A stretch of 41,262 nucleotides of DNA from a virus. Location: positions 1 to 41,262 of IMG/VR virus record IMGVR_UViG_3300042471_000991; one strand, written 5' to 3'. Shown here piece by piece: positions 4,784-21,507 of the stretch (position 1 is its first letter; every line of letters starts with the position of its first letter). The notes beneath the pieces were generated by a model that ran no database searches, had not been told where the DNA came from, and worked only from the letters and a program-made list of their open reading frames with translations. A program made the position numbers and the translations under genes.

Positions 4784-4791
4784 ATTAACCC

Positions 4792-5514
4792 CTAGTTGTA
4801 TGTTTTTTTCTGCCAAAACTGTTGTTTATAAGAACGAACAATTTTTGATTTTAATAAAAAACCATTTTTAAGATTTTCATTTTCATTAAACTCTACTTTT
4901 TCACTTTTCCAGTCTTCTCTTTTAAAAGGAATAACTTGACATATTGGTGTTCCTTTTTCAAGAATAAAAATATCTTTATCAATTACAGAATCAAGCAACT
5001 GAAATGGAAGTTCTACTCCAAGCTTATACATATCAGTATCAACTACTCCAGAGAATGTTCTGAATGGTAGATCGTGTCTGTTTAATGGATGAGTAAACAA
5101 AGTACTATATCCTTTTGGAGTAATAATTCTCCAGCCTGGTCTCCATTTAAGAAGACTTGGTGATCCACCAAATGGTGCTGGAATACCTGGAGCCTGATCT
5201 GGTCCATGTTGCCCTATAAAATTAACATTTGTAGCCCAACGAACATTGATCATTCCATTATTATTTTTTCTAAACTCCATATCAAAAGGCAGTTCAAAAA
5301 TATATCCAGAACTTAATGCATCAAGAAATGGAGAACACCCCTTTAATGTAAGATTGCTAACTGCAACACCATCTTTTGATAAGCCATCAATTTTTTCATT
5401 GTCCATTCTTGTTGGCATATCTTTATACCACTCAGGAATTACTTGAACTGCTGGTTTTGGAATTTCAAATAAAAGTTCTGATTCTTTATCAAATGGTTCA
5501 AATTGAATTTTCAT
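4792..5514 (-). CDS. Conserved unknown family, copy 1 of 3
   Basis: 240 residues; ATG overlaps the upstream stop by four bases. Related to the proteins at 17360-18058 and 18576-19286. Shared landmarks in order: KPAVQVIPEWYKD, LKGCSPFLDALSSGYIFELP, STLFTHPLNRHDLPF, VVDTD and EKGTPICQVIPFKREDWK. The glycine, histidine and aspartate pattern and predicted beta content hint at a cupin-like sandwich, but no catalytic signature is certain. All three copies lie in glycosyltransferase operons, so a role in the same modification pathway is likely. Function unknown. Confidence 0.75.
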   Translation of the reverse strand: MKIQFEPFDKESELLFEIPKPAVQVIPEWYKDMPTRMDNEKIDGLSKDGVAVSNLTLKGCSPFLDALSSGYIFELPFDMEFRKNNNGMINVRWATNVNFIGQHGPDQAPGIPAPFGGSPSLLKWRPGWRIITPKGYSTLFTHPLNRHDLPFRTFSGVVDTDMYKLGVELPFQLLDSVIDKDIFILEKGTPICQVIPFKREDWKSEKVEFNENENLKNGFLLKSKIVRSYKQQFWQKKTYN

Positions 5515-6218
5515 TGACTACCCATTTCTGGATACCTTTTTTGTAATATGTCCAACCAGTATAACTTAAAAGTTTTTTGATGCGTTACCCTAATTTTAGG
5601 ATCTACCCAAATATCAAAACCACAATTAATTGCTTTTGTACACCAAGAAAGATCTTCACCTATTAATATAAATTCAGGATTTGTTTCTTTATTTTCATCA
5701 GTATTTGGAATAGGTACTGGACCAAACCATGGTCGTGGCATCTTTTCAAATACCCCCTGTTTAACTGCTAAAAATCCAAAACCAGCACCAGCAACTTTAA
5801 AAGGTTCTTTCTTTTCAAGAAGCATTTTTTCTGGCATCATTCCACCTCGTGGTTGATTATAGATAGGAACATGACGATCTTCCATTAAATAACAGCCAGA
5901 GATAATATCTTTTTCAGAATTATATAATCCAAAAAAATCTGCTGGTTCCCATTCTATATCAGAGTCAATCCAAATAATTTTATCGTATGTCCATTCACCA
6001 CTACATGGTTCTGTCATTTTTACATTATTTGTATCCCAACCACCAATTGTAGATTCTCTTGCCATTGCAACTAGTGAGCCACCCTGATTCAAAAAGTTCC
6101 ATGTAAGACCTTCTTGATTCAAAATATAGGTTGTTTTTAAAATACTTCTCATATATCCAGGAGTAAAGCTGTTTCCTGGAGTAGCTATTACTACATTAAA
6201 GTGTGGTTTATTACTCAT
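5511..6218 (-). CDS. GT-A glycosyltransferase-like protein (235 aa)
   Basis: N-terminal FNVVIATPGNSFTPGYMRSI, DSD motif in DKIIWIDSDIEWEPADF (metal and nucleotide-sugar binding in GT-A enzymes), then AGAGFGFLAVKQGVFEKM and GEDLSWCTKAINCGFDIWVD. The last motif matches the acceptor-side E-D-x-x-W/F-C pattern of GT2-like enzymes. Close relative of the next gene upstream (6211-6891), indicating local duplication. Overlaps both neighbours by 4-8 bases within one operon. Sugar specificity unknown. Confidence 0.75.
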   Translation of the reverse strand: MSNKPHFNVVIATPGNSFTPGYMRSILKTTYILNQEGLTWNFLNQGGSLVAMARESTIGGWDTNNVKMTEPCSGEWTYDKIIWIDSDIEWEPADFFGLYNSEKDIISGCYLMEDRHVPIYNQPRGGMMPEKMLLEKKEPFKVAGAGFGFLAVKQGVFEKMPRPWFGPVPIPNTDENKETNPEFILIGEDLSWCTKAINCGFDIWVDPKIRVTHQKTFKLYWLDILQKRYPEMGSQ

Positions 6219-6891
6219 ATTTTTCTAGCTTTACCCTAACTTTTTTATAATGTGAAAGTCTAATTGTTGGATCTAAATATATCTTAAATCCTGACTGCGT
6301 TGCTTTTTTGCACCAAGAAAAATCTTCTCCATACGGAATAAAAATTTCTTTTTCATTATTTTCTGATGCCATTCTTTCAAATAAAGATTCAAACCATGGT
6401 CTTTTCATATTTTCAAATACGCCAGACTTCATTGCAATAAAACCAAATCCAGCAGCAAATATTTCTTCTTCATTATTGCTTTTAAGAATTCTGTCAATTT
6501 CTTTTGCTGCATCATTAGATGCAACAGAAAACATAGGCGTCATTTTTTCATTAAAATATAGCCCAGATACTATATCTTTTTCTGACTTATATAATTTTAT
6601 AAAATCTTCAACTTCCCAGCCAATATCGGAATCAATCCAAATAATTTTATCGTATGTTACTGCACCACGAGCGGGTACATTATTAAATGGATCTAAATAT
6701 GTATCTCCCATGGCAGTTGCTTCTCTAGCAGAACTAACCATTGATGAATATTGATTTAAAAACATGTATGTAATATTATTATCATGCAGGTATGAAATAG
6801 TATTTATTAGGCTTTTTACATACTCTGCTTCCATATTTCTACCTGGTGTAGCTATTAGTATATTAATATGTTGTTTCAATTTTTCCCCCAT
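6211..6891 (-). CDS. GT-A glycosyltransferase-like protein, paralogue
   Basis: ATG 6891 gives MGEKLKQHINILIATPGRN; the longer open frame upstream overlaps the adhesin end and a promoter and is rejected. DSD in DKIIWIDSDIGWEVEDF, then AAGFGFIAMKSGVFENMKRP and GEDFSWCKKATQSGFKIYLD align motif by motif with the 5511-6218 protein. The ATG lies six bases after TATAAT, so the transcript is probably leaderless. First gene of the four-gene operon ending at 3815. Confidence 0.75.
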   Translation of the reverse strand: MGEKLKQHINILIATPGRNMEAEYVKSLINTISYLHDNNITYMFLNQYSSMVSSAREATAMGDTYLDPFNNVPARGAVTYDKIIWIDSDIGWEVEDFIKLYKSEKDIVSGLYFNEKMTPMFSVASNDAAKEIDRILKSNNEEEIFAAGFGFIAMKSGVFENMKRPWFESLFERMASENNEKEIFIPYGEDFSWCKKATQSGFKIYLDPTIRLSHYKKVRVKLEKYE

Positions 6892-6897
6892 ATATCT

Positions 6898-6903
6898 ATT
6901 ATA
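6898..6903 (-). promoter_or_regulatory. -10 box for glycosyltransferase operon
   Basis: Minus-strand TATAAT preceded by TGC (extended -10), six bases before ATG 6891. TTTACA 16 bases upstream may be the -35; it overlaps the end of the adhesin gene. Confidence 0.55.
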
Positions 6904-6926
6904 GCAAAGATATTTTTTTTGTAAAG

Positions 6927-9900
6927 TTATATAACTTTTACATCTTTTATAGTATCTGTTGATATTGGTAGTGATAAAGTAGTCCAAGAAGTTCCATTTG
7001 TAGATACATAAGCACCGTATTCTGTATTTACACTTGAATATCCAGTTTGTCCTTGTATACCGCCAAATACCCAAAGATTATTTCCATATACTATTGAATT
7101 AATTGTTGATCTATAATTAGAAATACGGGTAGTCCATGAAACATTATCAGTTGATACACGTATTTGACCTAAATCTCCTACCGCTGTATAAAAACTATTT
7201 CCATAAGATACTGCTAAAATATTTGTAGTTGCAAAATTAGAAGTTTGAGTATTCCATGTTATAGCATCCGTTGAAGTTCTAATTTGACCTGCATCTCCTA
7301 CTGCAATCCATATATTATTTATATAAGAAACTGAGTCTATATTAGTATTTCCAAAGTTGGAGGTTTGGGTAGTCCATGTAATAGTATCTGTGGAAGTTCT
7401 AATTGGCTCATTTTGCCCATATGACAACCAAAGTCCACTACCATACGAAATATAATATGGTTTTGTACTTGTAAAATTAACTTGTGGGGTTGTCCATGTT
7501 ATAGCATCTGTTGAACTTATAATACTAAATTTATTAGTTGATGATTGAATTTTTCCTTCAAAACCTCCTGTTACTAACGTGTTATTTCCATACACTACTG
7601 TATTTATTTGAGAATAATTAAAGTTATTGTTTACAGTAGTCCATGTAATAGCATCTGTTGAGGTGCGAATTTGGCCTGTTGCTCCACCTGCTACCCAAAG
7701 GCTATTGCCATAGGCTATTGAGTTGATAAGTGTAGTTCCAAAGTTTGAGGTTCGGGTAGTCCATGTAATAGCGTCTGTTGAGGTGCGGAGTTGGCCTGTA
7801 TCGCCAACTGCTACCCATAGATTATTTCCGTAGGCTATTGAGTTAATTTGTGTATTTCCAAAGTTTGAGGTTCGGGTAGTCCATGTAATAGCATCTGTTG
7901 AGGTGCGGAGTTGGCCTGTAGTACCACCTGCTACCCATAGGCTGTTGTCATAGGCTATTGAGTTAATTTGTGTATTTCCAAAGTTGGAGGTTCGGGTGGT
8001 CCATGTAGTAGCATCTGTTGAGGTGCGGAGTTGGCCTGTAGTACCACCTGCTACCCATAGATTATTGCCGTAGGCTATTGAGTTAATCGCTGTAGTTCCA
8101 AAGTTGGAGGTTCGGGTGGTCCATGTAGTAGCATCTGTTGAGGTGCGGATTTGGCCTGATTGTCCACCTGCTACCCATAGGCTATTGCCGTAGGCTATTG
8201 ACTGAATTGTTGTATTTCCAAAGTTGGAGGTTTGAGTGGTCCATGTAATAGTATCTGTTGAGGTGCGGATTTGGCCTGTATTGCCACCTGCTACCCATAG
8301 GCTATTGCCGTAGGCTATTGAAAATATAGTTGTATTTCCAAAGTTAGAGGTTGGCTCGTTCCATGTAGATAAATATTCTTGAGATCCAGAAGCTACCCAT
8401 AAACTATTGCCATAATCTATTGATAATATTGAATCTATTACATAATTGGATGTTCTGGTAGTCCAAGATATAGCATCTGTTGAAGTACGCAATGCACCGT
8501 TGCTTCCTCCTGCTACCCACAAATTATTTTTATATATAGTTGATAACATATTTGAACCTACAAAATTACTTTGTCTACTTGTCCATGTTATTAAGTCTGT
8601 TGAAGTTTTTAAATTGAAATTATTAAATGATGATCTTAGTTGTCCTATTGTATTGCCCAATATAAAGATATTATTAGCATATGCTACTGACAAAATTGAT
8701 GATGAATCTAAGTTTGGTATTCCAGTAATCCATGTAGTAGCATCTGTTGAGGTGCGGAGTTGGCCCAGTGCTCCACCTGCTACCCATAGGCTATTGCCAT
8801 AGGCTATTGAGTTGATTTGTGTATTTCCAAAGTTGGAGGTTTGAGTGGTCCATGTAATAGCATCTGTTGAGGTGCGGAGTTGGCCTGTCAAGCCACCTGC
8901 TACCCATAGGCTATTGCCGTAGGCTATTGAGTTAATCGCTGTAGTTCCAAAGTTGGAGGTTCGGGTGGTCCATGTAGTAGCATCTGTTGAGGTGCGGAGT
9001 TGGCCTGAATTGCCACCTGCTACCCAAAGGCTATTGTCATAGGCTATTGAGTTGATTTGTGTAGTTCCAAAGTTGGAGGTTCGGGTGGTCCATGTAGTAG
9101 CATCTGTTGAGGTGCGGATTTGGCCTGTATTGCCACCTGCTACCCATAGGCTGTTGCCGTAGGCTATTGAGTTAATTATTGTAGTTCCAAAGTTGGAGGT
9201 TACAGTGGTCCATGTAGTACCGTCTGTTGAGGTGCGGAGTTGGCCTAAACTACCACCTACTACAAATAAACTATTACCGTAGGCTATTGATAAAATTGCT
9301 CCAGATGTAAAGTTGGAAGTTCGGGTGATCCATGTAATAGTATCTGTTGAGGTGCGGATTTGTTGTCCAGATCCAGCTGCTACCCATAGATTATTGCCGT
9401 AGGTTATTGAGTAAATTATTGAAGTTCCAAAGTTGGAGGTTCGGGTGGTCCATGTAACGCCAGTAGATAATTCTGGGCCACTTGAAGCAAGAAAAAGTCC
9501 ATTTCCATATTTTATTACAACTGGATCTGTAGTACCAAATCCAGTACTAAAAGTAGTCCATGTAAGTGGATCTCTTTTATCTACAATCATTGCATAAGAA
9601 TTGTTGTTGTATGATATATTTTTTATATTTCCTATTTGTCCAGTATTATAATATAAATTAACATCTAAGGTGGGATCATATCTATATATATACCCGTTAT
9701 TTGTTGCTACAACATTATTATCTAAAGATGTAGTAAAAGATTTTTCATTACCAGGAATATAAATAAAAGCTCCACTAGTGGATAAGTCTCTTGCTATTAC
9801 AAATATTCCATTTCCATAAGCAACTGATTGATTAATTATAGAGTTATTATTTTCACGACTATACGTTGGGACTGTAATCCATGTAATACCATCTGTTGTG

Positions 9901-12900
9901 TATGCAATTAAATTTTTACCACCTACAGCAAAAAATAAACCATTTGCATAAGTAATTGATGTTATATCTCCATATTCAATAAGTTGATTTGGTGAATTCC
10001 CTGATACTGTTGTAGTCCATGTAACGAGGTCTGTTGATTTTCTAATTTTTGGGTCAGTTCCTGAATACTGACTTGCTAACCAAAAATCATTACCATAAGA
10101 TATTGCATCTATAGATATACTTGTTTGGGTAGTCCATGTAATAGCGTCTGTTGAGGTGCGGAGTGGGCCAGAAGGTGCATTACTGATTGCTACCCATAGG
10201 CTATTGCCGTAGGCTATTGAGCTGATTTGTGTATTTCCAAAGTTGGAGGTTTGAGTGGTCCATGTAATAGTATCTGTTGATGTGCGGAGTTGGCCTGAAT
10301 TGCCACCTGCTACCCATAGACTATTGCCGTAGGCTATTGACTGAATTGTTGTATTTCCAAAGTTGGAGGTTTGGGTAGTCCATGTAATAGCATCTGTTGA
10401 GGTGCGGAGTTGGCCTGAATTGCCACCTGCTACCCATAGATTATTGCCGTAGGCTATTGAGTTAATTGTTGTATTTCCAAAGTTGGAGGTTCGGGTAGTC
10501 CATGTAATAGCGTCTGTTGAAGTATATATTATAGATTGATTATCTGAACCTATCACCCATAGACCATTTCCGTATGCCACACACAAACCACTTACTACTT
10601 TATCAATTGATATAGTATTAATATATTGTTGATCAATAAATCCATTATTTTCATAACTATAGTATGAAAAACTACCATCTATAAAGTTAATTTTATTATC
10701 TCTACCTTTACTAGCACTAAGAATAGATTCAAATGGTTTAGAAATCTGTGATTTTAATATTAAATCTGATGCACCAACATATATATATCCATTAGCATAG
10801 CAAATAGCACTTAAGGTACATTCTCTATATCCAGCATCTGTTTTAGATGTTTGTGTTACCCAAGTCATCAGATCAGTTGAAGTTTTTAAACCAAAATATA
10901 TACTATTATCTATTGAATAATAAATGTTATTTGCATAGTAAAGTTTTGAAGACCTATTGTTTATTTTTGTTGTCCAGGTAATTGCGTCTGTTGAGGTGCG
11001 GATTTGGCCTAGAGTTCCAGTAGTAGCACCTGCTACCCATAAGTTGTTAACATATATTATTGAGTTAATCTGATGACCTCCACTAAAGTTTGAGGTTTGG
11101 GTGGTCCATGTAGTAGCGTCTGTTGAGGTGCGGAGTTGGCCTATGTTGCCACCTGCTACCCATAGGCTGTTGCCATAGGCTATTGAGTTGATAGGTGTAG
11201 TTCCAAAGTTGGAGGTTACAGTGGTCCATGTAGTACCGTCTGTTGAGGTGCGGAGTTGGCCTGACTCACCACCTGCTACCCATAGGCTGTTGCCATAGGC
11301 TATTGAGTTGATAGGTGTAGTTCCAAAGTTGGAGGTTCGGGTGGTCCATGTAGTACCGTCTGTTGAGGTGCGGAGTTGGCCTGAATTGCCACCTGCTACC
11401 CATAGATTATTTCCGTAGGCTATTGAGTTAATTGTATTTCCAAAGTTGGAGGTTCGGGTGGTCCAAGTTATGCCGTCTGTTGAAGTAGATAAAAATCCAC
11501 CGCCCCCTGAAGCTATAAATAAACCATTTTCATAGATTATTGAACTAACTTGATACTTAATAGCTGATGACCAACTAAGACTTGTTGTTGTCCAAATATA
11601 GTTACCGTATACAGCATTAAAATTACCTACACTATTAATTCTATTATATGATTCTGCCACAAATCCATTGTTTCCAGATATTAATGTAAGTCCATTCTGA
11701 CTTGTAATATTTTTTGTACTGTCCTGAGTTGCAGTAGATAATGAAGTAAAAGCACCGTGATTAATAGATGCTGTTGTCCATGTGTCTAAATTTGTAGAAT
11801 ATTTTGTTAAGTCTCCAGTTGATGATGAAATAAAAGAAAAATTATCAGATGCCATTTCGGCGAATTGAATTCCAGAATTATTACTAGAGTCAACTGATAC
11901 AATTTTATTATTTCCATAAACTAATGTACCGCCAGTGCTAATTAATTGTTTAGTTGTTTCGGTAGTCCATGTAATACCGTCTGTTGAACTTTGCAAAAGA
12001 GTATTACTTGCAAAAACATCAAGTGCCAATACCCATAAATTATTAGCATAAAGTATCTTGTCAACTGAACCTGTGTTGCCTAATGGGGTTACAGTAGTCC
12101 ATGTAATACCGTCTGTTGACCTTCTTAACATAGGTGTTATACTTGAAAGACCACCACCTGCTAACCATAAACTGTTACCGTAGGCTACTGACAATATAGT
12201 TGAAGTTCCAAAGTTTGAGGTTCGGGTAGTCCATGTAATAGTATCTGTTGAGGTGCGGAGTTGGCCTGAATTGCCACCTGCTACCCATAGATTATTTCCG
12301 TAGGCTATTGAGTTAATTGTATTTCCAAAGTTGGAGGTTCGGGTGGTCCATGTAATAGCGTCTGTTGATGTGCGGATTTGGCCATTATCGCCAACTGCTA
12401 CCCAAAGGCTATTGCCGTAGGCTATTGAGTTGATTTGTGTATTTCCAAAGTTGGAGGTTTGAGTGGTCCATGTAATGGTATCTGTTGAGGTGCGGAGTTG
12501 GCCTGTATTGCCACCTGCTACCCATAGGCTGTTGCCGTAGGCTATTGAGTTGATAAGTGTAGTTCCAAAACCAAAATTTGTAGTAGTGGCAGTGTTCCAT
12601 ATAATTCCATCTGTTGAAGTAACAGAAGTGCCAACGCTAGATGTTTGTCTAGCTTGAGCTATAAAAAATCCATTTCCATAAGCAGCTGTGGATTCAAATC
12701 CAATTAATCCAAAGTCATTTTGTGAGCCAAGTTGCCAAGTTAAAGGATTTAAATAATTATTTACTTGATAAACAGCATTTATATTTGAAGATCCAAATCC
12801 TGAATCTATAGTTGTCCATGTAGTTTGGTTGGTAGATAAATAAAATAAATTATTATTACCCCCGACTAATGTAAGAGATCCTGATGGTATTGTTCCATAT

Positions 12901-13097
12901 GTTGATGAAGTTACTGCTTGATCTAATGTACCGTCAAAAATATTATTTAATGAATAACCTGCTGAAATATTAGTAGTAAATGTTGATAGATCTCCTGTTG
13001 TAGATCTTAATGTACCGTCGCTATTTGCAAAAAATATTTTCTTAAGGAAGCCCGATGCTGTGCTTATTGCGCTTGCAATAATTCCTAATATTGGCAT
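6927..13097 (-). CDS. Giant Asp-box repeat adhesin or tail spike (2056 aa)
   Basis: Dozens of units of about 40 residues carry INSIAYGNSLWVAGGNSGQL followed by RTSTDAITWTT. The S-T-D-x-x-T-W core is an Asp-box, the turn motif of sialidase-type beta-propellers. Near-identical units alternate with diverged linkers that restart with phrases like SSTGDLTKYSTNLDTWTT, suggesting several propellers or super-blades in one chain. The N-terminus MPILGIIASAISTAS is of a kind seen on phage appendage proteins. No catalytic domain is visible. ATG 13097 has AAGGAA upstream. It sits between two glycosylation operons, and its Thr/Ser-rich surface makes it a plausible modification target. Confidence 0.85.
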   Translation of the reverse strand: MPILGIIASAISTASGFLKKIFFANSDGTLRSTTGDLSTFTTNISAGYSLNNIFDGTLDQAVTSSTYGTIPSGSLTLVGGNNNLFYLSTNQTTWTTIDSGFGSSNINAVYQVNNYLNPLTWQLGSQNDFGLIGFESTAAYGNGFFIAQARQTSSVGTSVTSTDGIIWNTATTTNFGFGTTLINSIAYGNSLWVAGGNTGQLRTSTDTITWTTQTSNFGNTQINSIAYGNSLWVAVGDNGQIRTSTDAITWTTRTSNFGNTINSIAYGNNLWVAGGNSGQLRTSTDTITWTTRTSNFGTSTILSVAYGNSLWLAGGGLSSITPMLRRSTDGITWTTVTPLGNTGSVDKILYANNLWVLALDVFASNTLLQSSTDGITWTTETTKQLISTGGTLVYGNNKIVSVDSSNNSGIQFAEMASDNFSFISSSTGDLTKYSTNLDTWTTASINHGAFTSLSTATQDSTKNITSQNGLTLISGNNGFVAESYNRINSVGNFNAVYGNYIWTTTSLSWSSAIKYQVSSIIYENGLFIASGGGGFLSTSTDGITWTTRTSNFGNTINSIAYGNNLWVAGGNSGQLRTSTDGTTWTTRTSNFGTTPINSIAYGNSLWVAGGESGQLRTSTDGTTWTTVTSNFGTTPINSIAYGNSLWVAGGNIGQLRTSTDATTWTTQTSNFSGGHQINSIIYVNNLWVAGATTGTLGQIRTSTDAITWTTKINNRSSKLYYANNIYYSIDNSIYFGLKTSTDLMTWVTQTSKTDAGYRECTLSAICYANGYIYVGASDLILKSQISKPFESILSASKGRDNKINFIDGSFSYYSYENNGFIDQQYINTISIDKVVSGLCVAYGNGLWVIGSDNQSIIYTSTDAITWTTRTSNFGNTTINSIAYGNNLWVAGGNSGQLRTSTDAITWTTQTSNFGNTTIQSIAYGNSLWVAGGNSGQLRTSTDTITWTTQTSNFGNTQISSIAYGNSLWVAISNAPSGPLRTSTDAITWTTQTSISIDAISYGNDFWLASQYSGTDPKIRKSTDLVTWTTTVSGNSPNQLIEYGDITSITYANGLFFAVGGKNLIAYTTDGITWITVPTYSRENNNSIINQSVAYGNGIFVIARDLSTSGAFIYIPGNEKSFTTSLDNNVVATNNGYIYRYDPTLDVNLYYNTGQIGNIKNISYNNNSYAMIVDKRDPLTWTTFSTGFGTTDPVVIKYGNGLFLASSGPELSTGVTWTTRTSNFGTSIIYSITYGNNLWVAAGSGQQIRTSTDTITWITRTSNFTSGAILSIAYGNSLFVVGGSLGQLRTSTDGTTWTTVTSNFGTTIINSIAYGNSLWVAGGNTGQIRTSTDATTWTTRTSNFGTTQINSIAYDNSLWVAGGNSGQLRTSTDATTWTTRTSNFGTTAINSIAYGNSLWVAGGLTGQLRTSTDAITWTTQTSNFGNTQINSIAYGNSLWVAGGALGQLRTSTDATTWITGIPNLDSSSILSVAYANNIFILGNTIGQLRSSFNNFNLKTSTDLITWTSRQSNFVGSNMLSTIYKNNLWVAGGSNGALRTSTDAISWTTRTSNYVIDSILSIDYGNSLWVASGSQEYLSTWNEPTSNFGNTTIFSIAYGNSLWVAGGNTGQIRTSTDTITWTTQTSNFGNTTIQSIAYGNSLWVAGGQSGQIRTSTDATTWTTRTSNFGTTAINSIAYGNNLWVAGGTTGQLRTSTDATTWTTRTSNFGNTQINSIAYDNSLWVAGGTTGQLRTSTDAITWTTRTSNFGNTQINSIAYGNNLWVAVGDTGQLRTSTDAITWTTRTSNFGTTLINSIAYGNSLWVAGGATGQIRTSTDAITWTTVNNNFNYSQINTVVYGNNTLVTGGFEGKIQSSTNKFSIISSTDAITWTTPQVNFTSTKPYYISYGSGLWLSYGQNEPIRTSTDTITWTTQTSNFGNTNIDSVSYINNIWIAVGDAGQIRTSTDAITWNTQTSNFATTNILAVSYGNSFYTAVGDLGQIRVSTDNVSWTTRISNYRSTINSIVYGNNLWVFGGIQGQTGYSSVNTEYGAYVSTNGTSWTTLSLPISTDTIKDVKVI
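7621..9470 (-). repeat. 120-bp tandem coding repeats, largest block
   Basis: Units of 120 bp, six in exact register from 7741 to 8460 and more to 9470, code the 40-residue Asp-box units. Neighbouring units differ by only a few bases, indicating recent expansion or gene conversion. Confidence 0.85.
10120..10540 (-). repeat. 120-bp coding repeats, second block
   Basis: About three and a half further copies of the 120-bp Asp-box unit, separated from the first block by diverged linker sequence. Confidence 0.8.
11080..11480 (-). repeat. 120-bp coding repeats, third block
   Basis: About three copies of the 120-bp unit, including two almost identical neighbours at 11170-11400. Confidence 0.8.
12200..12570 (-). 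repeat. 120-bp coding repeats, fourth block
   Basis: About three copies of the unit near the N-terminal end of the adhesin; one copy is shortened by three bases at the turn. Confidence 0.8.
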
Positions 13098-13826: not shown

Positions 13827-13854
13827 ATAGCCCTATATTAATTTATAGGGCTAT
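13827..13854. terminator. Bidirectional terminator
   Basis: ATAGCCCTATA, loop TTAATT, TATAGGGCTAT: an 11-bp perfect stem between convergent genes ending at 13821 and 13851, with T-rich sequence on both sides. Confidence 0.75.
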
Positions 13855-14813
13855 TCTTTAATATTATTATCTTTTAAATATTTATAATAATTATTTTTAA
13901 TAAAATAAAAATCTAATCCAAGTTCTATACAAAAGTCTTTAAAAGTTCTTTGTACATCATGTATATAAAATCTTGTATTTTTGGAATTAAATAAAAATTT
14001 ATAAAAATCTGGCTTAAAAATTATGTGGTCTTTATCCTTTTCTGATAGAACTTTAAATGTTTTATCACTAAAGTTTTTTGATCCATATACAAGTTCGTTA
14101 TATTCTTCATTGTTATGAGATAAATAGTTATACCCTAAAATTGCATAAGTATCATAACCCCTTATATAAGAAAAAATACTATCAACATACTCTTCTGTAA
14201 AAAAATCAGAATACGAATCAAAAGAACCATCTGTTATAAATGTATTATCTGAAAAAATAAATTGACCAGTTATATATTGAGTTTTAGCAAAATCACCAAT
14301 AATTTCAATATTTTTAAATTTTGATATTTCTCTTTGCTCACTGCCTATTCCTAAAAAATTATACCCCGAATTATTGTTTATGTAAAATGAAGTAACACTG
14401 TTTTTTTCTTCTTCATTTTCTTTCCCAATATGTCTTGTTAAAAATTTAGAAATAATAACCTTATCTTTACCAGTTATTTGTTTTAACTCATTAAATTTTT
14501 TAATTAAATTAATATCCCAGTTTTTTTCAAAAAACATATGAGAGTCTATTTGCAAAAAATAATCTTGATTACGCATTAATTTTCTTAATATGTACCTAAT
14601 ACGAACAACGCCAGGTCTGTTTTTAGCATTTAAATTTAATAATGATAAATTTTCTGTTTTAATAAAAGAAAAATCTGGAATTTTTATTTTTTCATTTTGA
14701 ACTGCTATTCCAAAATATAAATTTTCAGGATACAGAGCATTATCTATAGCAGATTTAACTGTTCTTTCTAAAAAAGGGTCTTCGTATGATGCAATAGATA
14801 CATATATGGACAC
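13851..14813 (-). CDS. GlcNAc-transferase-like protein (PF11397 type)
   Basis: GTG 14813 follows GGAG with five-base spacing. MSIYVSIASYEDPFLERTVK and the hallmark DYFLQIDSHMFFEKNWD (residues 84-100) match the Skp1-type GlcNAc-transferase family, in which Asp-Ser-His acts as the metal-binding DxD equivalent. The C-terminal part is charged and Phe/Tyr-rich without a clear second domain. Last gene of a long operon containing oxygenases. In eukaryotes this family glycosylates hydroxyproline; the target here is unknown. Confidence 0.8.
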   Translation of the reverse strand: MSIYVSIASYEDPFLERTVKSAIDNALYPENLYFGIAVQNEKIKIPDFSFIKTENLSLLNLNAKNRPGVVRIRYILRKLMRNQDYFLQIDSHMFFEKNWDINLIKKFNELKQITGKDKVIISKFLTRHIGKENEEEKNSVTSFYINNNSGYNFLGIGSEQREISKFKNIEIIGDFAKTQYITGQFIFSDNTFITDGSFDSYSDFFTEEYVDSIFSYIRGYDTYAILGYNYLSHNNEEYNELVYGSKNFSDKTFKVLSEKDKDHIIFKPDFYKFLFNSKNTRFYIHDVQRTFKDFCIELGLDFYFIKNNYYKYLKDNNIKE

Positions 14814-14814
14814 A

Positions 14815-15438
14815 TTACTCCGTTCCGTCTGACATTAACATATCATGTCTATTGTGAAACCAAGCTGGTATTGAGTATCTAGTTCCAGAAACGATATCCG
14901 ATATTGTATGAACATACAAAAAGTTTGATGGGAATAAGACAACGCTTCCAGCTTTTGGTTTTATTGTTATATTTGAAATTGGAAAAGATATTTCTCCACC
15001 TTCATAATCGTCATTTAAATATATTAACACACTTAAGGCTCTTGTACTTACTCCATGATCTTGATGGGGAGGTAAAAATCCACCTTTAACATATTTTAAT
15101 ATATTTGGCCTTTCTCGCCCCTTTAAATTAGCTCTAGCAAATGTATACTCACTAAAGTACTCTTCTAGTGCTTTGTCTGCAATTAAGTTAATTTCATTTA
15201 TTAAAAATAATTCTTCTTCATAGTATTTATGATTTGTAAAAAGCTCTTCCTTGTTTTGTAGTCTTTTTTGATAACAAAATACACTGTTTTGTCCATCCAC
15301 CCATGGATTCCAAATTGTTCCATTATTTTCTTGTTCACTTTTACTATTATAGTTTTCTAAGAATTCAATTATTTGATTTCCATTATTAAAAACATCCTCA
15401 ACCATAATTAAACCAAGATCTAATTTTTTAGTTATCAT
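14815..15438 (-). CDS. 2-oxoglutarate/Fe(II) oxygenase, P4H-like (207 aa)
   Basis: ATG 15438 follows GGAGG with six-base spacing and overlaps the upstream stop; a longer frame is rejected. FLPPHQDHG gives iron ligands H125 and D127, VHTIS gives H177, and GTRYSIPAWF gives R187 for 2-oxoglutarate, all in the expected order and spacing of prolyl-4-hydroxylase-type enzymes. IYLNDDYEGGEISFP is the typical central strand pair. Likely hydroxylates a protein or sugar using O2. Immediately upstream of the GlcNAc-transferase-like gene. Confidence 0.85.
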   Translation of the reverse strand: MITKKLDLGLIMVEDVFNNGNQIIEFLENYNSKSEQENNGTIWNPWVDGQNSVFCYQKRLQNKEELFTNHKYYEEELFLINEINLIADKALEEYFSEYTFARANLKGRERPNILKYVKGGFLPPHQDHGVSTRALSVLIYLNDDYEGGEISFPISNITIKPKAGSVVLFPSNFLYVHTISDIVSGTRYSIPAWFHNRHDMLMSDGTE

Positions 15439-15994
15439 TTTTAGCCTCCAATATATCTGGATCTGCAAAAGCAATATCCGAGCAGTGATGAAATAAAAGT
15501 GTATATCTATGTCCGCTTGTTACCTTAGTAATTCCATGAATATAGGAAGAATTTTTTTGTGGAAATAAGACAGCGGAATATTTTACTGGAACATATTTAA
15601 AGTTTTTTTGTGGAAAATATATTACTCCACCTTCAAATTCTGGTGGCTCATTTAGATATATTACAGTACTCCACTGAATAAATGGTTCTTTTTCAATATC
15701 GTCAAGATGTGGCGGTCCTTCATTATCTGTTTCCCAATGCGAAGAATACCCTTTTGTTGCATAAATATTTTCATCTAAATTAAATAATTCTTGAATTTTT
15801 TTATTTGCTTTTTCTCCATATTTTTTTAACATTGACACAGTAATTTTATTATATGGCAAAGCCGTTCCACCATTTCTATTATTATAAAACTCTGGATATG
15901 GGTTAAATTCAGAAGGATGATTTATTTCATTTATAATGATTTGTGCATCTTCAGGTTCAATAAAATTTTCAATAATAAATATTTGATTGCTCAT
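15428..15994 (-). CDS. 2-oxoglutarate/Fe(II) oxygenase (188 aa)
   Basis: Second complete oxygenase: HLDD (H96, D98), YIHGI (H153) and SGHRYTLLF (R163) form the facial triad and cosubstrate site. VIYLNEPPEFEGGVIYFP matches the same strand pair as the previous gene, so the two are relatives with a diverged N-terminal half. ATG 15994 overlaps the upstream stop by four bases. Substrate unknown. Confidence 0.85.
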   Translation of the reverse strand: MSNQIFIIENFIEPEDAQIIINEINHPSEFNPYPEFYNNRNGGTALPYNKITVSMLKKYGEKANKKIQELFNLDENIYATKGYSSHWETDNEGPPHLDDIEKEPFIQWSTVIYLNEPPEFEGGVIYFPQKNFKYVPVKYSAVLFPQKNSSYIHGITKVTSGHRYTLLFHHCSDIAFADPDILEAKNDN

Positions 15995-16746
15995 ATTCTA
16001 CTCCCGTGGGTATAAAATCTATCACGCTGTAATTCTCCTATTTGATGCCTTAAATATTCCACATCATTTAATTGATGATAATTTTTTTTAATAGGATTAA
16101 TTAACGCATACTCTTTGAAATTTCTTTGTAATCCAATAAGATTTATAAACTTATTGCTACCAGTATCATATAAGCTTTGAACTTGATCATAGTTATGAGT
16201 TTTAGAAAAAGGAATATAGTCGTGCTCTTTTTTATCTAAAATATTTATAATTTCTAGTAGACTATCTTCAAAATCATACCCATTGCAAAATGCCCTAATT
16301 GATAAATCTTCTTCTTCACCCATTAATCTAAGATAGTGAGGATATCCAAAAATATCAAGATCTTGTTTTTTAATAAAAGTACCATCTACTGAAAAACTAT
16401 TTTTTATGCTTTTTATTTTGTTTGATTTTAGATTATTTAATATCTTAATATCCCATTGGTCAGTAAATTCTGTAGCAGAAGATACAAAAAGAATATATTC
16501 TTCTGCTGGAATATAAGAAGTTATTGTAAATCTTTGTGTTGCAAATCCTTCAAAATTATCCCAGGGAAGATAATTAATAAGATCTTTTTCTGTTTTTTTT
16601 ACTTTATAATGATAGCTATCTTGAATAGTTACAAAAAATTTTATTCTATCTTTTAATGCAGCTTTATTATATGCATTATTGATAGTTTCAACAATTCTTT
16701 TATCTCTATAAGAAACTATGCAAATATTTATTGAAGCGGAATCCAA
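15991..16746 (-). CDS. GlcNAc-transferase-like GT-A protein (251 aa)
   Basis: Begins INICIVSYRDKRIVETINNA, like the N-terminus of the 13851-14813 protein, then EYILFVSSATEFTDQWDIKI at the place where the relative has FLQIDSHMFFEKNWD. The usual DSH is here SSA, so the metal-binding motif is altered and activity is uncertain. LMGEEEDLSIRAFCNGYDF is a plausible acceptor-side acidic motif. The start is TTG 16746; no ATG precedes the first strand. A diverged or inactive paralogue is possible. Confidence 0.65.
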   Translation of the reverse strand: MDSASINICIVSYRDKRIVETINNAYNKAALKDRIKFFVTIQDSYHYKVKKTEKDLINYLPWDNFEGFATQRFTITSYIPAEEYILFVSSATEFTDQWDIKILNNLKSNKIKSIKNSFSVDGTFIKKQDLDIFGYPHYLRLMGEEEDLSIRAFCNGYDFEDSLLEIINILDKKEHDYIPFSKTHNYDQVQSLYDTGSNKFINLIGLQRNFKEYALINPIKKNYHQLNDVEYLRHQIGELQRDRFYTHGSRI

Positions 16747-17360
16747 TGCTGTTCCTGATCTTTAGGATATGTTTTTATTCTTTCAAAAGGAACAACATCG
16801 TATGCAACTGTAATTCTTGGACCATCCCATGACCAATCTCCCATTGCATGTGGATGTCCCATCTCAGAAAGAATTGCTCTATTGTTTTTATTAATATTTT
16901 CTACTACCTGTGCTGGATCTCTAAATAATTGATAGTATGTAGATGACGGCTCTGCACTTACACAGTAATATCCATGAAATAGCGGAGCAAAATCTTCTGG
17001 ACCAGCGTGGTCATGCCAGTCTAGCTTTCCAGTATCTGAATAGTTAATATTAAACCATCCCTGCATCATATACTTTTGTTCTTCAAAATTTATCTTATAA
17101 TATTCACATGCTTCTTTAGTCATACTAGAAATAGCATTATATAGATTTCTAATACCAGTAATATGGAACTGAAAAACATTATATTGATTCCATTTAGCAG
17201 TAGATATACTTCCAGAACTTACCCACGCACCGTCATCAGTTACTGGAGTAACTCCATCTATTTCTGCATTTTTTATTCTTCCATATCTATCTTTTAATTC
17301 CTCGGATAAATCTAAAAGATCGTTATCTAAAAATCTTTCAAAGAATTTATGCTCTCTCAT
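16728..17360 (-). CDS. 2OG/Fe(II) oxygenase-like protein with altered motif (210 aa)
   Basis: QGWFNINYSDTGKLDWHDHAG followed by GYYCVSAEPSSTYYQLFRDP and GHPHAMGDW...PRITVAYDVVP resembles the 2OG-FeII_Oxy_5 layout. Metal ligands would come from H116 and H118 (HDH in place of HxD) and H169 or H171, with R182 for the cosubstrate. The HDH variant needs testing. Overlaps genes on both sides, within the same operon. Confidence 0.65.
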   Translation of the reverse strand: MREHKFFERFLDNDLLDLSEELKDRYGRIKNAEIDGVTPVTDDGAWVSSGSISTAKWNQYNVFQFHITGIRNLYNAISSMTKEACEYYKINFEEQKYMMQGWFNINYSDTGKLDWHDHAGPEDFAPLFHGYYCVSAEPSSTYYQLFRDPAQVVENINKNNRAILSEMGHPHAMGDWSWDGPRITVAYDVVPFERIKTYPKDQEQHWIPLQ

Positions 17361-18058
17361 TAATTAAACTCCTTTGGTTGTTGTAATTGTTTAGTATACC
17401 ACGAGTGAATATATGTTCGCCTATTTTCGTGCTCCCATAGCATTTCATCTTTAATAGAATTATCTATCTCCATCTTCCAAGACTCTCTTGTAAAAGGTAA
17501 AAGTTGATATATTGGTGTGCCTTCTTTTATTATTCCTTCAAAATCTCTCCTTAACACAAATCTAATATCTGCTGGTGGAAATTTTTTATCTGAATCTACT
17601 ATTGCTGACGGAACATAAAATGGCAAATCAACTCTGTTAAAAGGATGTGTAACAAGCACTGATGTGCCAGGGGGAGTTGATATTCCATGCATCATCCTAA
17701 ATGCAAAAGCAATTGGGTGATAAAAAGGAGGTATTGGAAATTCAACTAGTGGCATTCTATTTATAGTAAACAAATTAGATTTCCATGAGATTTCTGGAAT
17801 ACCATACTTATTTATTTCTACTAAAATATCTTCTGCCAATAAAACTTGATAGCCAGATGCGAAAGCATCAAATGTTGGAGAACAAATTTTTAATGATATG
17901 GCAGAAGAGTCTATTCCATCTTGATTGCTTAATTTTACATCTGCTAAACTGTTTGACTCATTATATTTACTAATATCTTTATACCACTGAGGAATTATTG
18001 TTTTTGCTGGAACTGGATCTGGTCCAAGTCCAACTTGATAAAATTTTATTGTTTTCAT
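17360..18058 (-). CDS. Conserved unknown family, copy 2 of 3
   Basis: 232 residues related to the proteins at 4792 and 18576: KTIIPQWYKD, LKICSPTFDAFASGYQVLL, SVLVTHPFNRVDLPF, AIVDSDK and KEGTPIYQLLPFTRESWK. The conserved blocks are evenly spread over the full length, so it appears complete. Translationally coupled to both neighbours. Function unknown; co-occurrence with oxygenases and glycosyltransferases links it to the modification pathway. Confidence 0.75.
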   Translation of the reverse strand: MKTIKFYQVGLGPDPVPAKTIIPQWYKDISKYNESNSLADVKLSNQDGIDSSAISLKICSPTFDAFASGYQVLLAEDILVEINKYGIPEISWKSNLFTINRMPLVEFPIPPFYHPIAFAFRMMHGISTPPGTSVLVTHPFNRVDLPFYVPSAIVDSDKKFPPADIRFVLRRDFEGIIKEGTPIYQLLPFTRESWKMEIDNSIKDEMLWEHENRRTYIHSWYTKQLQQPKEFN

Positions 18059-18576
18059 AATACTTCCATATAGTATGCAGATGTATGTTTTTCTATTTTA
18101 CCATAGTCTGCTTTTATAAACTTAGAATCTTTTTTTACAAAAAATGGAACCCATACTGGCTCTAAAATATTTTTATTCTCTGGATATATTTTAGAAAAAT
18201 TTATAATAATCTCTTCTGGAATATAAAATGGATAATCCTCATCATTTGAATTTTTTATTTTTACATCTATATCTTTGTCAAAAAACCAAGAACAATACCA
18301 CGCAAACTTTGTATTAAAACAATCACTTGGAGCGTCTTTTGCATATATATCAATAGTTTTAAATTGTTGAATTGCTGGCCTACTTACCATTCTTATCATA
18401 TTATTGCTATCAAAATTAATTAAATATTCACTATAACACTCTTGTCTATATAAATTTTCAGATATTTCTTTTGGTTTTGGAGATATTTTCATTGCATACA
18501 AATGTAGTGGCTTGATTAAATCATTTTTAATTTCTTCTTTATTTGGAATTTCATAATAATAGCTTTTATGATTCAT
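18055..18576 (-). CDS. Hypothetical operon protein, perhaps distant family member
   Basis: 173 residues, ATG 18576 overlapping the upstream stop as TAATG. EDYPFYIPEEIIINFSKI and EPVWVPFFVKKDSKFI faintly echo the DLPF...IVD and GTPI...IPF blocks of its two neighbours, but CSP and THP motifs are absent. It could be a strongly diverged paralogue or unrelated. No function proposed. Confidence 0.6.
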   Translation of the reverse strand: MNHKSYYYEIPNKEEIKNDLIKPLHLYAMKISPKPKEISENLYRQECYSEYLINFDSNNMIRMVSRPAIQQFKTIDIYAKDAPSDCFNTKFAWYCSWFFDKDIDVKIKNSNDEDYPFYIPEEIIINFSKIYPENKNILEPVWVPFFVKKDSKFIKADYGKIEKHTSAYYMEVL

Positions 18577-19286
18577 TATTTATATTCTTTTCTTGTCCAA
18601 AATTTTAATTTATATCCGTGAAGAAATGTTGACCTTACAACTTTTCTTTGAATATTTTCTATGTCTGGGTTGTATCCATGTATTTCGTGTTCCCATTTTT
18701 CCCTATTAAAGGGTATAACCTGAACTAAAGGAGTTCCCTGTTTTATAATACCTTTAAAATTCTTTTTTACAAAAAATGATAAATGTCCGTCACTAATAAA
18801 TTTATCAGTATCTACAATTGCTGTAGTTGCAAGTATTGGAGAGTTTTCTCTAAAAACTGGAGGCATAAATAATGTACTAGAACCAATATCTGTTTTAATA
18901 AGCCAAAAAGGATGGATTCTTAATACATCTGACATATATATCTCTGTATCTATTGGCATATTGGATAACTGTTGGTTTGGATGTGCAGATATAATATGTG
19001 GTCTAAACCTTTCAAATTCAAATGGTAACTGAGTTAATATTTGATTTCCAGTTGTATCTACATAAATATCTATTGGCATTTTAATAATATATCCTGCAGT
19101 TATTGAATCAAGAATTGCTGGACATTTTTTTACAGTTGACTGATATGTTCCATTTGAAAGTTGACCATTATCCATAAAAGGTTGCTGTAGTTTCCACCAC
19201 GCTGGTATATTTTGTATTGCTGGCTCTGGTTTTGGAGCTATTCCTAGCATTTGAGAGTGTGCTTCAAAAAAACGAATTTTTGTCAT
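18576..19286 (-). CDS. Conserved unknown family, copy 3 of 3
   Basis: ATG 19286 overlaps the upstream stop as TAATG, giving MTKIRFFEAHSQ; a seven-residue longer start is rejected. Shared blocks: EPAIQNIPAWWKL, VKKCPAILDSITAGYIIKMP, STLFMPPVFREN, AIVDTDK and KQGTPLVQVIPFNREKWEHE. Here THP is replaced by MPP and NR by FR, so the central His is not universal in the family. Function unknown. Confidence 0.75.
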   Translation of the reverse strand: MTKIRFFEAHSQMLGIAPKPEPAIQNIPAWWKLQQPFMDNGQLSNGTYQSTVKKCPAILDSITAGYIIKMPIDIYVDTTGNQILTQLPFEFERFRPHIISAHPNQQLSNMPIDTEIYMSDVLRIHPFWLIKTDIGSSTLFMPPVFRENSPILATTAIVDTDKFISDGHLSFFVKKNFKGIIKQGTPLVQVIPFNREKWEHEIHGYNPDIENIQRKVVRSTFLHGYKLKFWTRKEYK

Positions 19287-19528
19287 TACCATTTTCCTAA
19301 CGGACATTCTGCATTTTCTAACTTAGTTTTTAATAACATAAAACATCCACATTTTTTACATTGTTTTGTTGCACTAGTCAATTGAGGACAAGAAAGACAT
19401 ATCTCATATCTTTCTTTAGCAATGCTTTCTGCTACATATCCTGTTTCTGGATTTAAAAAATCCCAAGGTCTTGTCTGACCTAAATTTTCTTTATATTTTT
19501 GCCAAGCACTTTTGTTGTCATTTTCCAT
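19286..19528 (-). CDS. Small zinc-ribbon protein (80 aa)
   Basis: RPWDFLNPETGYV is followed by CLSCPQL, CKKCGCFMLLKTKLENAECPLGKW: two CxxC-type pairs plus extra cysteines likely bind zinc. The 24251-24445 protein shares PWD..N, CRKCGCFMKLKTTLEKAKCP and the ending GKW, so the two are paralogues. Known as a recurrent small phage protein type of unknown function. Located directly upstream of the third unknown-family copy. Confidence 0.75.
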   Translation of the reverse strand: MENDNKSAWQKYKENLGQTRPWDFLNPETGYVAESIAKERYEICLSCPQLTSATKQCKKCGCFMLLKTKLENAECPLGKW

Positions 19529-19533
19529 AATTA

Positions 19534-19974
19534 TTAGTCAGGGTTAGTAAAATTAGAACCATCGTACAGCCAGCCAACTTCAACAAAAGATAACTGCTCT
19601 GAAGTTAACTCAACAATTTCTGAAGAAATTATAATATTAACATATTCATCAATTTTTTCTTGATTTTCAAATGTGTCTTTTCTTTTTCCATATTGTCCAA
19701 CTATTTCCCCATCCATAATTCCTGCAAACCTTATTGAATTTGGATGTGTAAATACGCCTTCTTCTAGCAATGTGGTAGTTCCATCTTCTATATCTTTTTT
19801 ATAAAATTTACCGTCTAAAAATAAATCTCCTGGCATTACATCATACCTTGTTGTTTCTTTTAAAAGAACTCCAGATCTAAATAATGCAATCCATTTTTCT
19901 GTTGATGGACCAGCAGGACTTACTGACTCTATAAAACGAACTACCCCATCTTTAATAAATGCAAAACTTGGCAT
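19534..19974 (-). CDS. Fibre-associated or chaperone-like virion protein (146 aa)
   Basis: Starts MPSFAFIKDGVVRFIESVSP and ends VGWLYDGSNFTNPD; this C-terminal W-x-Y-D-G-x-x-F-x-x-P pattern is common in small proteins linked to phage fibres or fibre assembly. AAGGAGAAAA lies before the ATG, and a consensus promoter precedes it. First gene of the 13.9-20.0 kb operon. The exact role is unproven. Confidence 0.6.
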   Translation of the reverse strand: MPSFAFIKDGVVRFIESVSPAGPSTEKWIALFRSGVLLKETTRYDVMPGDLFLDGKFYKKDIEDGTTTLLEEGVFTHPNSIRFAGIMDGEIVGQYGKRKDTFENQEKIDEYVNIIISSEIVELTSEQLSFVEVGWLYDGSNFTNPD

Positions 19975-20036: not shown

Positions 20037-20702
20037 TTAACAGAAGAATGTTCCACCGCAACATGGCGGTTCGCCACCACAGCAGCAAGGGCTGTAGCAG
20101 TCACAGAACGGTGGTGTAAAGCTGAACGGCGTAAAGCTAAATGGTGCTGGCGTAAAGCTGAACGGCGTAAAGCTAAATGGTGCTGGCGTAAAGCTGAACG
20201 GCGTAAAGCTAAATGGTGCTGGCGTAAAGCTGAACGGTGTAAAGCTGAACGGCGTAAAGCTAAATGGTGCTGGCGTAAAGCTGAACGGTGTAAAGCTGAA
20301 CGGCGTAAAGCTAAATGGTGCTGGCGTAAAGCTGAACGGTGTAAAGCTGAACGGTGTAAAGCTAAATGGCACAGAAGGAGTAACAGTATTACTTATAGTA
20401 GAAGGCAAAGATGTAGCAATAATAGAGTTAGCAGCAGTTCTTGTGCTTAATGTAACAGTAAAAGTATAAGATGTACCGTTTGTTAGTCCAGTAACAGTAA
20501 TTGGACTTGATGTTCCAGTAGCAGTAATTGATCCAGGATTGGATGTTACAGTATATAAATTATTATTTAGTGGTTTACCTAAATATGATGAAGCAGTAAA
20601 ACTTACTGTAGCTTGTGCATTTCCTGCACTTGCAGATGGACTGGTTGGCGCACTTGGTTGACGACCAGCAGACGACTGAGATCCACTGACATATGGTAGC
20701 AT
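20037..20702 (-). CDS. Fn3 plus FSFTP-repeat protein with cysteine-rich tip (221 aa)
   Basis: Three zones. Residues about 15-110 form a fibronectin type III-like domain (PTSPSASAGNAQATVSFT, ITVTGLTNGTSYTFTVTL). Next come 15 FSFTP pentads in groups of two or three separated by PAP. The last 23 residues (CDCYSPCCCGGEPPCC, then GGTFFC) hold eight cysteines. This suggests a surface-anchored stalk with a metal-binding or disulfide-locked tip. The Pro/Thr/Ser repeats could also be hydroxylated or glycosylated by the neighbouring operon. It lies in the fibre cluster; no known homologue is recognised. Confidence 0.75.
   Translation of the reverse strand: MLPYVSGSQSSAGRQPSAPTSPSASAGNAQATVSFTASSYLGKPLNNNLYTVTSNPGSITATGTSSPITVTGLTNGTSYTFTVTLSTRTAANSIIATSLPSTISNTVTPSVPFSFTPFSFTPFSFTPAPFSFTPFSFTPFSFTPAPFSFTPFSFTPFSFTPAPFSFTPFSFTPAPFSFTPFSFTPAPFSFTPFSFTPPFCDCYSPCCCGGEPPCCGGTFFC
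20113..20370 (-). repeat. Tandem coding repeat of FSFTP
   Basis: Fifteen copies of a 15-bp core (plus-strand GTAAAGCTGAACGGC-type), arranged in units of 36 or 51 bp. Copies differ mainly at two bases, so the tract is likely prone to length change. Confidence 0.9.
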
Positions 20703-20703
20703 T

Positions 20704-21507
20704 TTAAGCCACCAAATCGCCTAATGCAACCCAAGTATCTGTGGCTCGTTTTATTAATGTAACGGAAGAGTATTGAGCTCTTAGTTTTAATCCTGGGGTA
20801 CCATTTACGGTAACACCGCCAGATCCAGCAATTGTTGTTTGTCCTGCTCCTGTTTGTAATATAATTATCTGTGACCCTGTTGGAAAAGCTACTGATGAAT
20901 TTAATGGAATAGTTAATGTATTTGCAGAAGCATTAGATATTTCTACTATCTTAGAATTATCTGACAAAACCAAGGTATATGATGAAGTCTGTGCATTTGT
21001 AGCTAAATTAATTACAGGAGCAGTCAATGTTTTGTTTGTAAGAGTGTCAGTAGTTGCACGTCCTACTAGTGTATCTGTGCTTGTTGGTAAAGTTAGCGTT
21101 CCAGTATTAATAATACTTGAAATTGTTGGAGTTGTAATTGTTGGTGAATTTAGAGTGCTTGTCCATTGTAATCCACTAGCCGTTGCGCTATTTGCAATTA
21201 ATATTTGATTATTAGTTCCAACATTTAAAATTGAAGTTGTGCTTGCTGCTGAAGCAGAAATTAAATCACCTTTTGCTGTTAATGCACTTTTTAAAATAGC
21301 ATTATTTGATCCAGAAGTTATCTGTGTTTGAAGATCGTTTAAAGTATAGGCAATAGATGGATTTACTAAAGAAGCAGTGGATGTGTTTGCAGTATTATAT
21401 GAATAAGATCCATAATGATATACACGTAAAGCAGCTTGAATGTCTGCTGCATCAGAATACCCTGGTATTGCTGTGGGGTATAAAGAACCAATTGATTCTG
21501 CTGCCAT
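20704..21507 (-). CDS. Tail-fibre-like protein (267 aa)
   Basis: Contains ALTAKGDLISASAASTTSIL and NQILIANSATASGLQWTSTL, a phrase pair found in many aquatic phage fibres, followed by DTLTNKTLTAPVINLATNAQ and a compact beta C-terminus ending YSSVTLIKRATDTWVALGDL. This end resembles trimerising fibre tips. Ribosome site AGAGGTG precedes ATG 21507, and a late-type promoter lies upstream. Shares the TNKTL repeat style with the gene at 1-1485. Confidence 0.75.
   Translation of the reverse strand: MAAESIGSLYPTAIPGYSDAADIQAALRVYHYGSYSYNTANTSTASLVNPSIAYTLNDLQTQITSGSNNAILKSALTAKGDLISASAASTTSILNVGTNNQILIANSATASGLQWTSTLNSPTITTPTISSIINTGTLTLPTSTDTLVGRATTDTLTNKTLTAPVINLATNAQTSSYTLVLSDNSKIVEISNASANTLTIPLNSSVAFPTGSQIIILQTGAGQTTIAGSGGVTVNGTPGLKLRAQYSSVTLIKRATDTWVALGDLVA

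Follow-up and report, generated by a model that had tools for sequence, protein, structure and literature searches.

A viral operon of 2-oxoglutarate oxygenases and GT60-type transferases beside a tail repeat protein: a candidate system for protein hydroxylation and O-glycosylation

The DNA analyzed here (the window) is a 41,262-base virus record, IMGVR_UViG_3300042471_000991 of IMG/VR, and the subject of this report is an operon of oxygenase and transferase genes within its minus-strand tail region. The operon consists of ten close-packed minus-strand genes running from 19974 down to 13851. A minus-strand promoter at 20022-19994 (TTGACA-17-TATAAT, a 12/12 sigma-70 match) lies 5' of the first operon gene and separates it from a gene encoding an FSFTP-repeat protein (20037-20702), and a terminator-like hairpin on the same strand at 13854-13827 (-15.7 kcal/mol, z -3.3) closes the operon. 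The hairpin is bidirectional, and a convergent SLT-lysozyme gene uses it as well. Since the promoter and the closing hairpin bound a close-packed run of genes, the oxygenase and transferase genes appear to form a transcription unit of their own beside a tail gene. An earlier reading made from the letters alone (the sequence-only reading) had proposed an operon at 13851-19974 joining 2-oxoglutarate (2OG)/Fe(II) oxygenases with PF11397-like transferases, which the Pfam scores, motifs and fold comparison bore out, and had placed the FSFTP-repeat protein next to the operon promoter, where it was indeed found. The two enzyme types were said to alternate; this is roughly right, the real order being OXc-GTb-OXb-OXa-GTa. 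A direct DNA search of annotated phages with the window gave no match.

OXa (14815-15438, with a likely ATG start at 15438 behind GGAGG) and OXb (15428-15994) scored 57.6 and 33.9 bits, respectively, against the 2OG-Fe(II) oxygenase profile PF13640, the cut-off of which is 27 bits. The HxD..H..R motif was unbroken in both proteins, as the sequence-only reading had stated for two of three oxygenase-like proteins, and the alignments showed that it is kept in 9-10 relatives. The only significant solved relatives of OXa were prolyl 4-hydroxylases and one PKHD-type hydroxylase; the match with the prolyl 4-hydroxylases 3itq and 5hv0 (E 5e-5) covered a local stretch of only about 50 residues. The third protein, OXc (16728-17360), displayed no Pfam match and no profile link to OXa or OXb. 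Its predicted model (pLDDT 88) matched 2OG enzymes, with Z 16.8 for 3bvc and 14.5 for human PHD2, and SnoN and ThoJ were also among the enzymes matched in the fold comparison. In place of the HxD of a 2-His-1-carboxylate site, OXc reads H-D-H..H..R (H116-x-H118..H171..R182), and the relative in viral contig L102 has HDD. By prediction, OXc thus has a 2OG-oxygenase fold with a divergent site, and its earlier assignment to the oxygenases stood at the level of the modelled fold but not of the HxD motif or a Pfam match. Sequence searches of the PDB with GT60, OXc and phrog_7084 profiles returned nothing useful.

Both transferases exceeded the PF11397 cut-off of 21 bits, GTa (13851-14813, GTG start) with 89.4 bits and GTb (15991-16746) with 31.0 bits. 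GTa, a GT60-type protein, keeps the D-S-H (D90/H92), WD (W99-D100) and EE (E207-E208) motifs, which were invariant across eight viral homologues. A profile comparison by hhalign showed GTb to be a homologue of GTa (probability 98.5, E 3e-15). GTb retains a GEEE stretch; its catalytic D-S-H is replaced by SSA in the window, by SSS in L004 and by NPG in L094, and some remoter GTb-type members have Asp at or next to this position. The prediction of two PF11397-like transferases therefore held for both proteins as regards family membership, but only for GTa as regards the catalytic motif. A role of GTb as a second active transferase was judged unlikely because the metal motif is missing. The retention of GTb in the operon of eleven viruses indicates that it is not simply decaying; it may have a reduced or structural role. 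A query with the single GTa protein found no relatives in the viral contigs, and an alignment-based query was therefore needed.

Most of the operon order is conserved in ten other viral contigs. In L004, the run p7084b-u18055-p7084a-OXc-GTb-OXb-OXa is complete, with 46-75% identity to the window, and large parts in the same order were found in L005, L006, L008, L009, L010, L011, L012, L014, and L094. Between the window and L004, dN/dS was 0.11-0.45 for all seven genes, at silent sites that are near saturation. In relatives, carbamoyltransferase, tryptophan halogenase, and APS-kinase-like genes were observed in the vicinity of the conserved operon (L011:4268-5689, L012:140-1573, L014:4795-6399, L004:10871-11677).

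The two enzyme families also occur within single proteins. A viral open reading frame (ORF) at L074:8792-10288 combines PF11397 (109.7 bits) with PF13640 (69.1 bits); this viral fusion rests on one contig, which a repeat search returned again. Six of 14 bacterial GT60 loci contained ORFs of 1,300-2,450 residues with 2-4 PF11397 domains, recognized by our own profile, and PF13640-like oxygenase domains, and Pfam confirmed all three of the fusion ORFs tested (PF11397 662-938 bits, PF13640 69-78 bits). As the families are fused in one virus and in bacteria, a functional link between oxygenases and GT60 enzymes is supported. The bacterial fusion ORFs L257, L258, L259, L260, L261, and L263 belong to Rickettsiales/Alphaproteobacteria, some of them carrying an AhpC/TSA domain, and such proteins may represent unexplored glycosylation mega-enzymes.

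The FSFTP-repeat gene (20037-20702, minus strand) directly follows a minor-tail-protein-like gene (20704-21507, minus strand), the C-terminal approximately 95 residues of which match Gordonia phage proteins that are annotated as minor tail proteins. The repeat protein has an fn3-like N-terminus, 15 FSFTP copies at residues 113-197, and a Cys-rich C-terminus; its fn3 score (22.3 bits) is below the cut-off, which relatives in L005 and L094 exceed. Each FSFTP unit offers Ser, Thr, and Pro, i.e. both acceptor types, and the repeats could be suited to hydroxylation or to direct glycosylation. Repeats of the F-x-F-x-P type were found in the window, L004, L005, L094, and L102, all of which have OXc-type operon genes.

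To put this neighborhood in context, 80 loci were selected with the tail domain as the sole criterion; those in which the record extends 4 kb further downstream fell into 31 sequence clusters. A Pro-repeat protein was defined by 9 or more Pro within a 30-residue stretch close to the tail domain, a threshold set once the data had been inspected; 8, 10, and 12 gave similar results. Of the 20 clusters with oxygenases downstream, 18 had such a protein; of the 11 that lacked them, two did (p=1.3e-4), and in both of these an oxygenase lies at another place in the locus. The repeats beside oxygenases are diverse (PPFFPPFFP, PPGFFAPP, poly-Pro, FSFTP), and some loci have collagen-like GPTGPT instead. 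The tail domain is shared by two Gordonia phages in which the next gene lacks a Pro repeat and no oxygenase is annotated nearby; they fit the association and were excluded from the counts. Long PPFFPPYFPP repeats with up to 100% Pro plus Phe/Tyr in 30 residues were observed in L018, L116-L118, L139, L158, and others.

A second set of 80 loci (L172-L251) was built around viral GT60 genes, which often lie directly after TPTPTP-repeat protein genes, independently of oxygenases. A Thr/Ser-Pro repeat protein occurred in 31 of these 80 loci as compared with 4 of the 149 loci selected by oxygenase or tail domain, and the gene just upstream of the viral GT60 gene was a TP-repeat gene in 10 of 42 cases as compared with 18 of 411 other neighbors (p=6e-5). 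The median number of Ser plus Thr in the most Pro-rich 30 residues was 0 in loci that have oxygenases but no GT60, 13 in those that have GT60 but no oxygenases, and 4.5 where both occur (oxygenase-only against GT60-only, Mann-Whitney 2e-14, not corrected for relatedness). The simplest reading of these patterns is that oxygenases and GT60 enzymes both act on protein repeats, the oxygenases being used where the repeat offers Pro without a hydroxyl and GT60 where hydroxyls exist or were made. Since oxygenase arrays co-occur with Pro-repeat proteins beside the minor-tail-protein domain, it is now a well-motivated hypothesis that the substrate is a virion repeat protein, such as the FSFTP protein that the sequence-only reading had named as a candidate. 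Searches of the open-licence literature turned up no paper that connects 2OG oxygenases of phages with tail repeats.

Taken together, we consider it fairly probable that the operon is a virus-encoded system that modifies a tail protein by hydroxylation and O-glycosylation, in a phage version of a pathway of eukaryotic type. OXa, OXb, and probably OXc, as prolyl-hydroxylase-like 2OG/Fe(II) oxygenases, would hydroxylate the FSFTP repeats encoded at 20037-20702, most likely at the prolines. After or alongside this step, GTa would add a sugar, GlcNAc (N-acetylglucosamine) by analogy, to hydroxyls of the repeats; the acceptor could be hydroxyproline or the adjacent threonine. GTb, in which metal-dependent catalysis has probably been lost, may serve to position the substrate. 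The modification may serve adsorption or particle stability.

Several observations weigh against this interpretation. An oxygenase lies nearby in just 3 of the 80 viral GT60 loci, and GTb lacks the catalytic motif that GTa keeps. GTa is itself outside the conserved core, as only GTb stands beside the operon in L004, L005, and L006, and the donor sugar of GTa is not readable from its sequence. The records of L006 and L008-L014, some of them fragments, have core operon genes and no F-x-F-x-P repeat pair; FSFTP is therefore not the general substrate of the operon, and the substrate in these viruses probably differs. Finally, a tree test did not show phylogenetic independence of the oxygenase/Pro-repeat association, with one independent pair on well-supported branches; the test was weak owing to the short tail domain and weak branch support. 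The earlier proposal that the phage hydroxylates and then glycosylates a virion protein thus fared unevenly. The linked enzymes and a candidate repeat tail protein speak for it, and the operon together with the domain fusions supports a coupling of the two enzyme classes, which may or may not extend to a Skp1-type action of GT60 on the product of a hydroxylase. Sequential modification of one hydroxyproline is not supported as proposed, given the scarcity of oxygenases at viral GT60 loci, the use of Ser/Thr as well as hydroxyproline by GT60 enzymes, and the lost motif of GTb.

Because the tree test did not show independence, shared descent is a caveat on the association, and the oxygenases and Pro repeats might merely mark one tail-module lineage with no functional tie. 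We regard this as improbable, since the association spans repeats as unlike as PPFFP, PPGFFAPP, poly-Pro, FSFTP, and some GPTGPT, repeat composition tracks the enzyme set, and the two enzymes are fused. It is very improbable that the operon serves DNA hypermodification, i.e. TET/JBP-like base oxidation followed by glycosylation. Base J and phage TET pathways do pair an oxygenase with a glycosyltransferase, and OXa gave a weak Tet_JBP (PF12851) match of 19.7 bits, but this is far under the cut-off of 34.9, the solved relatives of OXa are prolyl 4-hydroxylases, and both the tail-module location and the repeat association point elsewhere; OXa was accordingly rejected as a DNA-modifying oxygenase of this type.

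The operon could instead modify a host cell-surface glycan or a small molecule, in receptor masking or auxiliary metabolism. The window contains further sugar-related genes, in relatives a carbamoyltransferase or a Trp halogenase is encoded close to the operon, and small molecules are substrates of many 2OG oxygenases, as the fold matches with SnoN and ThoJ recall. We nevertheless find this unlikely: the GT60 enzymes of PMC6939170 and PMC8724618 act on polypeptides, the operon adjoins tail genes, and the enzymes are associated with repeats. A distinct possibility, though still a doubtful one, is that two independent modifications fall on the same repeats, the oxygenases acting on proline (or an aromatic residue) and GTa on Thr/Ser, with no dependence between them. 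It is a special case of the hydroxylation and O-glycosylation favored here, so that the likelihoods given to the two overlap. GT60 genes alone beside Thr/Ser-Pro repeats, and oxygenase arrays alone beside Pro/Phe repeats nearly free of Ser/Thr, would agree with it, as would the mucin-type Ser/Thr polypeptide GlcNAc-transferases within GT60 (PMC6939170, PMC8724618). The PF11397/PF13640 fusions suggest a shared pathway instead, and L075, L145, and L019 have both enzymes with repeats that contain few or no Ser/Thr.

The remaining operon genes, all on the minus strand, encode a 146-residue protein with no assigned function (19534-19974, the first gene), a small CxxC protein of the DUF6171 type (19286-19528), p7084b (18576-19286, a phrog_7084 protein with a 50% identical homologue in L004), u18055 (18055-18576), and p7084a (17360-18058, phrog_7084/DUF6065-like). 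The conserved protein u18055 has no assigned function; it is 52% identical in L004, and its homologues in L006, L010-L012, and L014 are weaker. The model of p7084a has a predicted dUTPase-like beta-clip fold (Z about 10), and the prediction is extended from it to p7084b and the member at 4792-5514. Proteins of this phrog_7084/DUF6065-like type, of which the window thus has three, share a conserved SGIVDxD-like stretch, and their genes are common beside oxygenase and GT60 genes, including GT60 genes without oxygenases. DUF6171 is fused in frame with PF11397 at L067:835-2019; in the window, two DUF6171-like genes (19286, 24251) stand on their own. The sugar-related genes lie at 3815-7074, 38390-39097, and 39673-40329 and comprise a GT1-type transferase, an FkbM methyltransferase, an NTP-transferase-like gene, and two genes that are GT-A-like by eye, with no Pfam match. 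A 2056-residue protein (6927-13097) with many degenerate 'STDxITWTTxTSNFG..SIAYGNSLWVAGG' repeats and a DUF6242 match is probably a propeller-type tail fibre.

If the proposed modification occurs, the adhesins made by phages are hydroxylated and glycosylated, which would matter for adsorption, host range, and particle stability, and virion maturation would include a step that depends on oxygen. Pro-rich repeat proteins beside tail genes would then be a concrete substrate class for phage 2OG oxygenases, and an older source in which prolyl hydroxylases are said to be absent from bacteria and viruses (PMC3368898) would stand corrected. We tentatively extend the proposal, with a little less than even confidence, to aquatic tailed phages broadly: with dedicated enzyme sets they may make tail adhesins that are hydroxyproline-rich glycoproteins, in some cases linked through hydroxyproline, and whether a set comprises oxygenases, GT60, or both may be matched to the amino acids of the repeat. 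These adhesins would be a prokaryotic-virus counterpart of extensins, collagens, and Skp1. Such protein decoration is known from plants, animals, and amoebae and is not established for phages.

The closest known parallel is the Skp1 pathway of Dictyostelium and Toxoplasma (PhyA and Gnt1), in which a prolyl 4-hydroxylase forms hydroxyproline and the GT60 enzyme Gnt1 then attaches alpha-GlcNAc to it (PMC6939170). The same two enzyme classes make up the phage operon, which differs in adjoining a repeat tail protein, in its several oxygenases and degenerate second transferase, and in having no Skp1. The Trypanosoma cruzi-type mucin polypeptide alpha-GlcNAc transferase, also of GT60, modifies Thr/Ser-rich repeats without hydroxylation (PMC8724618), and many viral GT60 genes adjoin TP repeats; the window adds oxygenases and Phe/Pro-rich repeats. 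Glycosylation of virions has precedents. Mycobacteriophage virions are glycosylated according to work cited in PMC12619734, phage-encoded transferases being thought responsible, and the isolate XacN1 has at least two glycoproteins (PMC5852040) and a homologous transferase gene next to a carbamoyltransferase gene. As XacN1 has both, GT60 protein glycosylation in phages is plausible, though unproven: the transferase-glycoprotein link is only presumed in XacN1, and no hydroxylation step is described there in either case. On the oxygenase side, the nearest parallels are bacterial and phage oxygenases resembling prolyl 4-hydroxylases, among them 3itq and 5hv0, to which OXa is closest by sequence among solved proteins, PHROG 61, and EGLN3-like phage proteins. 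Prolyl-hydroxylase-like 2OG/Fe(II) oxygenases are widespread in phages of marine bacteria (PMC12774648), and the passages of that survey consulted here propose no substrate for them, whereas the repeat proteins described here suggest a candidate substrate class.

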